Positions 27,301-30,300 of a DNA stretch of 64,000 nucleotides are shown piece by piece. Below the pieces are notes generated by a model. The model made no database searches and had not been told where the DNA came from. It was given only the letters and a program-made list of their open reading frames with translations. Location of the stretch: the NCBI RefSeq assembly GCF_000003815.2, contig NC_049991.1:19025604-19089603 (forward strand), read 5' to 3'. The stretch comes from Branchiostoma floridae (lineage: Eukaryota > Chordata > Leptocardii > Amphioxiformes > Branchiostomatidae). The translations under genes and the position numbers were made by a program. How positions within the stretch are numbered: position 1 is the stretch's first letter; every line of letters starts with the position of its first letter.

Positions 27301-30300
27301 ATTCTCGAATAAAGTACGCACCCCAATTAAAGTACGCACCCCTGATTTTGGACAAGTCTTAGACAGATCTTTGGGACTGAAAGGTAAAATGGAAAAACTC
27401 AAATAAAGTATGCACCCCTTCTCCACCCGTTTTGAACAGACCTTTAACTAAATAAATTCGAATTTATAATGTTTTCCCCAGGTCATTTTGCATAAAATAA
27501 CCTGGGTTTACACTGTCATTGTCTCTATAAACTTGTGAATTGCCTGCTGCAAATTATAAAAATCACTGAGAACTGGTAGAAGAAATCAGGCTTCAAGACA
27601 ACAACAATGTGTATGTTTTGAAACATTACTAGAAGTGTAGCTCCACCTTGCTTTATTTTAGGCTTTTCTTACCATTTATCTGTACAGTAACCTCAAATAA
27701 AGTACGCACCCCAACTTTGACAACAACTTGTAGCACCTTTTCAATTTTGAAAAGTTAAAAAAGTGCGTACTTTATTCGAGAATATACGGTACTTGGATGA
27801 CAAAATTTGGCCAGGTAAAAAGACTCATTTTAGAGTACAGTCAAACCTGTCCTGAGCAACCACTCAAGGGACCGAGCAAAAATGGTTGCTGAGGACAGGT
27901 GGTTGCTCCCGACAAGTTGGTTGGTTGGCGAGCAAAAATAATAAATGATACGGTTTGCATGATATACACCTTTCAGTTAGTTCACAGGAAACATATCTAC
28001 AAGAGATGCCCAGTTTTCAATCCCCATGCTGTTATGTAAACAAATTTCAAGAAACCATTGTTTAACAATCAGAGCTGAGTTTGTCTAACAATCAAACATT
28101 GTTTGTTTTGTAGTTGTCTGTTTCCTTGAACAGCCCAAACAAGTGCTTTCAATTTCTCTACCAGTATGTCAAAATTCTCACTGATAATCATTTTGCATGG
28201 TGCACATTGTCAATATGCTTGACTGATATTCCCTTTCATAAAGAAAAGAAGTCCAGGGTAACTGTGCCTAGTACATAATTCTTCATATAAAATGGCTGCT
28301 AGCTGCTGTCAATCAATTTTGGTTGGTTGGGGCAGGTAGAATGCCCCTTTGGGACTGTAAAAAAGTGGTTGCCGGTTGGGGAAGACAGGTGGTTGCTTGG
28401 GAGGGGGTCTTAACTATGTAAAAATGGACGGGACTGTTTCAATGTGTCCTCTGATGGCAGGTGGTTGCCTGCGCCAGGTGGTTGCTCGGACAGGTTTCAC
28501 TGTACTAATATGCAAATGTTTATCCTTGTGTTTTACTCTCTCCCCCAGTACATGCTGCCTGCCATTGTCCACATCAACCACCAGCCATTCCTGGAGCGTG
28601 GAGACGGGCCCATCGTGAGTATAGAATAATACAATGTTGTTCATCACAGTAATGTAGGTGGCCCCCTCTTAAATATGACAGATGGACTAATCTTTCGGTA
28701 TCAATGCCCCTGTGTGTATTGAAAGACAATACAAGTAGTTTTGTATGTCAGTTAGCATATTCTAGATAGATGAAAACAAAATTGTCAGGATGGCTGATTT
28801 GCCCTATTTAGATTCCGTAGTGGGGTCATGAATTATGCTGCTTGTCTTGCCTTTTTTGGCAGATGTTCGCTTCATAACGACCATATCAAAATGATAGAGA
28901 TGTTATGCTTACCTTTTTCAGAAAATCTTCTATAACACGACATCATGTGCTTGAAATGTCAGATTTAACAATGAAAATTGAAAAGAAAAGTAGCAACAAA
29001 TTAGCTCCCCCAAAAAAATTAAGCTAGAGACAGTTCTGAGCCAGACAGTAGGGGGGTGGGGAGCAGGGGGGTAATGTTGCATGCTGCACCAGTATATCAC
29101 AGTTGTGCCGATCTCTGTGTCGCACAGTGTGTTGTGCTCATGGGGATGGACATCCAGAAAATCTCAACTTCATGACATAAAATTAATGAAACTGTATTTC
29201 CGTATGCTTAGACATTAAAAAGGACAGGTTTAGGAATGAGAAAAATAGCAACAATGCTCCCAAACAATGAGCGACAGAGAAAAACTTCAAGCTGGAGACA
29301 ACTGTTAGCCAGACATCAGGGGGGGGGGGGGAAGCAGGGAGACAATGTTGCATGCTGCACCATACATATATGTCACAGTTGTGCCGATCTCTGTGTCGCA
29401 CAGTGTGTTGTGCTCTGCCCGACACGTGAGCTCGCCCAGCAAGTTCAGGAGGTGGCCGTCCAGTTCGGACACTCCTCTCGCATCAAGAACACGTGCGTGT
29501 ACGGAGGCGCGCCGAAAGGCCCCCAGCTCCGAGACCTTGAACGGGGTAAGCACGCTGTGTGAGTGTGTGCTGTGTTAACGTCTGGGTTCTCACCAGAGCA
29601 TCATGAGCGTAGGGGTCCCCTACACACCGTGATTTGGGCCCTTTTCTATTGTTTTGTATAAAGGTTTACTATGAAATGGCTTTATTTCATTAAATTTGGC
29701 CATGAAATGCAGGAGATATTGTTCCTGAGATTGGTGAGATTGTGTGGCGCAATTGGCAGTGCGTTAGGCTTAGGCAAACTAACTAAAACCAAACCAGAGA
29801 GTTACCAAATTGAAAATTTTTAGGGGAGGGTGCTCCCACACTCCCCGTTGACCGCACAACTTGCCATATGGCTTTTCCCTACATAAAGGCGCCCCCCTAC
29901 GCTGTGAAAAAATCCTGGCGAGAACCCTGGCTAGGTTGTTTGTTGATATGGCTTGTTGTTTTATTGATGTTTACTCAGTGTCTGGTGTTGGCTCCGACCC
30001 GGGAACTTGCGCAGCAGGTTCAAGCAGAGGCAGTGAGGTTTGGCATGGCCTCGCGCCTTCGTAGCACCTGTGTTTTCGGCGGGGCTCCAAAGGGACCCCA
30101 AATTAGAGATCTAGAGAGGGGTGAGTAGGGTGCCGAAGTATCCGGTATTGCGTTGTTTTCCTTATCAGTAGTTCGGCACCCCGGTTTCTGCATGTTGGAG
30201 TGGCCTGTGTGTGTGTTCCGCTGATGTTGGTACATTTGCATTTCTTTGTCAAGAAACTCTATACTAAATTTGTGAAGAAAATTTATTCATTTTAGTGCGC

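Follow-up and report, generated by a model that had tools for sequence, protein, structure and literature searches.

Exons 6a and 6b, a probable mutually exclusive pair around motif Ia of a DDX5/DDX17-type helicase gene in amphioxus

The familiar examples of mutually exclusive exons come from channels, muscle and surface proteins, and relatives of the DEAD-box enzyme DDX5/17 themselves take part in splicing. The two exons described here, 6a and 6b of an amphioxus helicase gene, would belong to a kind that is already known, and the catalytic core of a helicase is an unusual place to find it. They resemble the animal tandem mutually exclusive exons in the available text of two human sets (PMC5740500, PMC9741552) in that they are neighbouring homologues, are equal in length and phase, and have a length that is not divisible by three, as do 377 (60%) of the clusters in the first of these sets (PMC5740500). 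They differ from the human sets in lying within the core of a DEAD-box RNA helicase and in being known here from sequence alone.

Word searches of the main texts found 'DDX' and 'helicase' absent from both human surveys (PMC5740500, PMC9741552) and 'DDX' absent from a third survey of such exons and from an amphioxus genomics paper (PMC6292497). Literature searches of titles and the starts of abstracts returned no such pair in DDX5/17 among the matches listed. Within that scope, the searches and the main texts of the surveys agree with the statement in the preliminary description of this DNA that no such pair is known in vertebrate DDX5 or DDX17.

The helicase gene and its tandem exons

The window, that is, the whole stretch of DNA analysed, comprises 64,000 nucleotides of the Branchiostoma floridae genome. 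The coding exons of a helicase gene were located in it, from MSGRYGHG... through the stop that follows ...SSYTGYQFQ. The spliced form containing exon 6a matched Pfam DEAD (2.6e-51) and Helicase_C (4.7e-33), and the closest solved relatives of the product were human DDX17, yeast Dbp2 and human DDX5. With these best solved relatives and these two domains, the gene falls within the DDX5/DDX17/Dbp2 subfamily. Its features, in window coordinates, are as follows.

24305..37666, + strand: DDX5/DDX17/Dbp2-type RNA helicase gene, from exon matches, Pfam and solved relatives
28549..28614, + strand: exon 5, 22 residues, donor GTGAGT
29013..29139, + strand: upstream tandem copy of the intron segment ending in the 6a acceptor and of the first 12 nt of 6a
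29404..29545, + strand: exon 6a, 47 residues (G), phase 0 to 1, donor GGG/GTAAGC
29546..29978, + strand: intron between 6a and 6b, 433 nt
29979..30120, + strand: exon 6b, 47 residues (G), phase 0 to 1, donor GGG/GTGAGT
30121..30135, + strand: 6b donor and adjoining intron bases, from comparison with the second gene on contig C10
30877..31037, + strand: exon 7 (motif Ib, DEAD box), site of the stop if 6a and 6b are both skipped

Two complete exons of 142 nt with sound AG/GT borders and identical phases had been reported in the preliminary description, and the coordinates, lengths, borders and phases all proved right. Its figure of about 70% identity held for the protein, in which 35/47 residues are the same (74%), and not for the nucleotides, of which 90/142 are the same (63%). 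Identity was uneven across the codon, with 36, 39 and 14 of 47 first, second and third positions shared. The corresponding differences, 11, 8 and 33, depart from an even distribution (chi-square P 2e-5), a skew that indicates a pattern as in protein-constrained sequence.

The consequences of each exon combination were assessed by splicing in silico. The combinations 5-6a-7 and 5-6b-7 remained open. Joint inclusion (5-6a-6b-7) led to a stop within 6b, and joint skipping (5-7) led to a stop 11 codons into exon 7, bearing out the earlier claim that using both exons or neither breaks the frame. By arithmetic, these early stops mean that only mRNAs with a single copy of the exon can make full protein. 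This frame rule exists because the exon length is 142 nt; it need not have evolved for the pair, and alone it is no proof of regulated splicing. The locus thus presents two adjacent, homologous exons that match in length and phase, GT-AG borders, no usable protein from joint inclusion or skipping and, as described below, protein-level selection on both copies (over 18 readable codons for 6a of the second gene).

These observations are best explained if 6a and 6b are old tandem duplicate exons of which each mRNA takes one, so that two helicase forms arise, a reading that we regard as probable. A single exon, encoding the strand before motif Ia, motif Ia itself, the next helix and the GG block, would have been duplicated in tandem long ago. 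One-or-other splicing would then yield two helicases that differ only in 12/47 residues of the first RecA domain. Double inclusion or skipping would place an early stop ahead of several exon junctions, and such mRNAs would be expected to undergo nonsense-mediated decay. The choice between the exons would be set by trans-acting splicing factors.

A further repeat was observed within the same gene. The 3' part of exon 8, whose 34 residues run up to the second helicase domain, occurs in three tandem copies at 31546-32019 with a spacing of 158 nt, and as a single copy in the second gene on C10. The copies differ pairwise at 5, 5 and 7 positions in 101 nt, and over 35 codons each pair has one nonsynonymous difference, at the first (junction) codon, all others being synonymous. 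Copies 2 and 3 are each 105 nt long, in frame and bordered by AG and GTAAGT, with introns of just 53 nt. The intron tail is common to copies 1 and 2 (1/57 differs), and copy 3 differs at 26 to 27 positions in an ungapped comparison. The triplicate could represent additional in-frame exons, a recent duplication or an artefact of assembly.

Outside the helicase gene, two reading frames on the - strand, at 43909-44907 and 47269-49017, matched Pfam RBP_receptor (2.5e-40 and 1.9e-66, respectively) and are presumably STRA6-like. Fragments at 38927-39343 and 46264-46800 resemble these frames, and a tandem cluster is suggested by eye. A weak match to Sulfotransfer_1 (1.3e-5, 25.2 bits against a cut-off of 22) lies at 49539-50153, also on the - strand.

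A second gene with the pair, and its age

The window's own genome (513,431,437 bases, 431 contigs) was searched for the 6a protein. Four matches were obtained: window 6a, window 6b, an exon on C10 (79%) and a distant one (43%). The C10 stretch contains a second DDX5/17-type gene, in which exons 2 (part) through 11 were matched in order; exon 1 was not recognised by exon matching. Exon 6b of this gene lies at C10:7245743-7245884, between its exons 5 and 7. Directly upstream is the start of a 6a, preceded by AG, with 19 residues the same as in window 6a. It is readable for 56 nt (18 codons) and is followed by 133 N (C10:7245577-7245709) within which the donor falls, and could be a broken copy. 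With a correct gap size and a 142-nt 6a, about 80 nt of intron would separate 6a from 6b in this gene. That a second gene has the beginning of a 6a together with a 6b in the corresponding position is new here.

The exon with motif VI (HRIGRT) was not found in the ~67 kb past exon 11 of the C10 gene (C10:7248117-7315800). Gaps of 1254, 13091, 545 and 100 N interrupt the C10 stretch from 7266318 on, up to C10:7315800; the exon may lie in these gaps, or the gene may be cut short or misassembled, and it is possibly incomplete. Among the best-scoring candidates, a genome search with exons 7-9 listed 27 matches, of which the 8 close ones fell in the window gene or in its counterpart on C10. The other 19 scored less well, at E 9.5e-12 or worse and 36 to 83% over 29 to 83 residues, in keeping with what other DEAD-box genes would give. 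Both genes of the DDX5/17 kind found among the matches listed therefore carry the pair.

Selection on the exons was assessed with Nei-Gojobori counts of synonymous and nonsynonymous change. Between the two genes, the 18 readable codons of 6a carry 7 synonymous and 0 amino-acid changes, and all 7 would be synonymous by chance with a probability of 6e-5. The two 6b exons differ by 26.8 synonymous changes in 35.2 sites, which is saturated, versus 16.2 nonsynonymous changes in 105.8 sites (dN 0.17). When 6a was compared with 6b within each gene, crude counts at or past synonymous saturation gave pS 0.96 and dN 0.19 in the window (47 codons) and pS 1.0 and dN 0.18 on C10 (18 codons). For the remaining exons of the two genes, dS ranged from 0.41 to saturation and dN from 0 to 0.28. 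Neutral drift was also simulated by carrying one copy to 16/47 third-position changes; 482/2000 runs stayed free of stops, and a mean of 19.5/47 residues was kept, with a best of 36. Both exons have most likely been kept as coding since the gene duplication.

All four copies can be read together over 56 nt, in which 6 sites pair 6a with 6a and 6b with 6b, and the other two groupings have 1 site each. This points to exon duplication first and gene duplication later as the most likely order, the pair predating the gene duplication. In a gene tree built without exon 6 (327 columns, human DDX5 partial), the window gene and the C10 gene grouped together, at only 82/86, beside human DDX5/DDX17. A tree of the exon itself joined 6a to Dbp2 and kept it away from both the 6b exons and the human ones, without support (35/0). 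On a further reading, judged unlikely, the pair arose before the split of amphioxus and vertebrates, early chordates tuned the helicase by a swap of the motif Ia exon, and vertebrates then lost one exon and split the work between DDX5 and DDX17. A division into a 'vertebrate exon' 6b and an 'old one' 6a is unsupported, given the Dbp2-like SRIKNTC of C10 6b and the 35/0 support in the exon tree. The vertebrate-like SRLRSTC of window 6b looks convergent or later.

Codon choice was compared as well. Exons 6a and 6b use the same codon at 7/35 positions versus 14.4 expected from the usage of the two genes (P 0.003), and P rises to 0.1 against uniform use. Codon 'avoidance' was accordingly rejected, and the dissimilarity is read as saturation together with different codon use. 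As a separate observation, the codons of 6b are rarer (0.49 in the window, 0.40 on C10) than those of any 47-codon window of the other exons (minima 0.52 and 0.54, over 431 and 274 windows), by a yardstick that was built from those other exons and so favours them.

Taken as a whole, the 6a/6b pair is real, old and selected, and is most likely used in a mutually exclusive manner. Mutually exclusive splicing, as proposed in the preliminary description, is well supported by the sequence and by recurrence of the pair in the diverged C10 gene; the use itself is what we infer.

Control by a poison exon, in which one copy would be the main coding exon and addition of the other would shift the frame and destroy the mRNA, thereby setting the helicase level, was judged improbable. 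Double inclusion does stop within 6b as this would need, and the DBP2 gene of yeast regulates its own expression by way of its intron. Intron 5 also contains, upstream of 6a, a possible decoy 3' splice site (acceptor at 29128), where the copy at 29013..29139 matches 29280-29415 at 83% over 136 columns and at 98% over the last 47 nt; its exon-like reading runs for 15 residues and then meets a stop. A poison exon, however, has no need to conserve what it encodes, whereas the protein of 6a is the same over 18 codons in the two diverged genes and PTREL, GG and DLER are retained in both window copies.

It is quite improbable that the pairs of the window contig (C13) and of C10 arose separately, or by copying between the genes, so that the pair would not be old. 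This explanation concerns age and is compatible with mutually exclusive use. It draws on the short readable part of C10 6a (56 nt) and on the small number of supporting sites (6). Against it, the synonymous distance between the 6a exons, 0.88, is within what the other exons show (0.41 to saturation), which argues against recent copying, and a blastn comparison of window 28400-31200 with the C10 gene picked up the exons and short border stretches but not the introns at large. That one copy is a relic, an intact duplicate no longer spliced into mRNA, is very improbable: the duplicated decoy acceptor adjoins 6a, and 6b codons are rarer than those in all 47-codon windows of the other exons by the yardstick favouring those exons, but synonymous divergence is saturated at a dN of ~0.19 and the pair recurs in two genes.

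Choice between the exons

If 6a and 6b are indeed spliced one or the other, something must select between them. No steric or U2/U12 blocking device was seen at 6a and 6b; the donors, GTAAGC and GTGAGT, are ordinary, the U12 type being judged by eye. Simple steric exclusion is ruled out in the window because the intron between the exons is 433 nt. A blocking device is not required for membership of this class: in the available text of the human survey, 5 clusters are U2/U12 incompatible and 57 (9%) have possible steric interference (PMC5740500).

Acceptor strength was compared by counting pyrimidines over 16 nt. The 6a acceptor has 11 pyrimidines (5 T), that of 6b also 11 (10 T) and that of exon 7 has 12 (5 T). 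In the C10 gene the 6a acceptor has the fewest pyrimidines, by one (10; the others 11 to 14). The splice-site comparison left out the exon 7 donors of both genes, the window acceptors of exons 2 and 4, and the C10 acceptor of exon 9. A weak 6a acceptor as the control point was set aside, there being no clear signal in the pyrimidine or T counts of either gene.

Downstream of 6b, positions +7 to +15 after the donor are common to the window and C10 at 8/9 bases, versus 0 to 2 of 9 at five other donors. These bases and the tandem copy in intron 5 are candidates for regulation. The C10 gene was seen by eye to have its own short AG-ended repeats just upstream of 6a.

TGCATG upstream of one exon and downstream of the other is the arrangement of an RBFOX switch. 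The motif is present upstream of 6a (29078, 29349) and downstream of 6b (30189). An RBFOX switch was dropped as a candidate: TGCATG occurs 30 times in the window, two of the three sites belong to a single tandem duplication, one in each copy, and the readable C10 sequence between exons 5 and 7 (133 N unread) contains none.

Intron RNA pairings like the docking and selector sites of Dscam would be a mechanism for mutually exclusive splicing rather than an alternative to it, and it is very doubtful that they set the choice here. The best duplex between introns 5 and 6 (-46.4 kcal/mol) was reached by 2/60 dinucleotide and 0/6 plain shuffles, but three intron pairs were tried, so the 2/60 is weak. 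Pairs 6/7 and 5/7 were ordinary, with 22/60 and 12/60 dinucleotide shuffles as strong. Of the three intron pairs, two were stronger than every one of the six plain shuffles, with margins of 0.7 and 1.4 kcal/mol, and the third was not. Past the 6b donor, the window sequence can fold into a 10-bp hairpin (z -1.75; 9/200 shuffles fold as well), which is likewise weak and is not the predicted fold in C10.

The two forms compared with known helicases

Motif Ia (10 residues) and the GG block (13 residues) are identical in 6a and 6b. Written as 6a/6b, the second residue is V/L and the one before PTREL is C/A; the other changes are EV/AE, Q/R, HS/MA, IKN/LRS, Y/F and L/I. The majority of all the changes fall between motif Ia and the GG block, the rest being the second residue, the residue before PTREL and the L/I after GPQ. 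The contrast of LCPTREL with LAPTREL pointed out in the preliminary description is thus the C/A change one residue ahead of PTREL, where C10 6b has T. A structural survey counts motif Ia among the three places where the DEAD domain contacts RNA (PMC2948006). The changed residues might themselves face RNA, as the preliminary description proposed in placing some of them in an RNA-facing helix. Because the changed residues spare motif Ia and the GG block, the functional difference between the 6a and 6b forms may be small. The swap would be expected to produce mild tuning rather than loss of activity, and the difference between the two forms would be a mild one affecting RNA handling or partners, with basic catalysis left as it is.

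The window protein matched human DDX17 over residues 2-372 of the 372 given (E 3.4e-200), yeast Dbp2 at 1.1e-158 and the DEAD domain of human DDX5 at 1e-129. Window 6b has a 10-residue stretch in common with human DDX5/DDX17, and window 6a has FGHSSRI.NTCVYGG in common with Dbp2. The cysteine before PTREL in 6a is also present in human DDX42 (VIVCPTREL), which indicates that this residue is tolerated in DEAD-box proteins. DDX42 is a different helicase, and there the cysteine stands in the one sequence seen and is not known as an alternative.

If the reading of 6a and 6b as mutually exclusive exons is true, a core exon pair kept in two genes would be a natural experiment on the residues around motif Ia, and the animal could probably make two forms of the helicase. 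To our knowledge no such exon pair exists in the human DDX5/DDX17 or yeast Dbp2 genes; unlike these, the window gene has two alternative exons for one block of the helicase.
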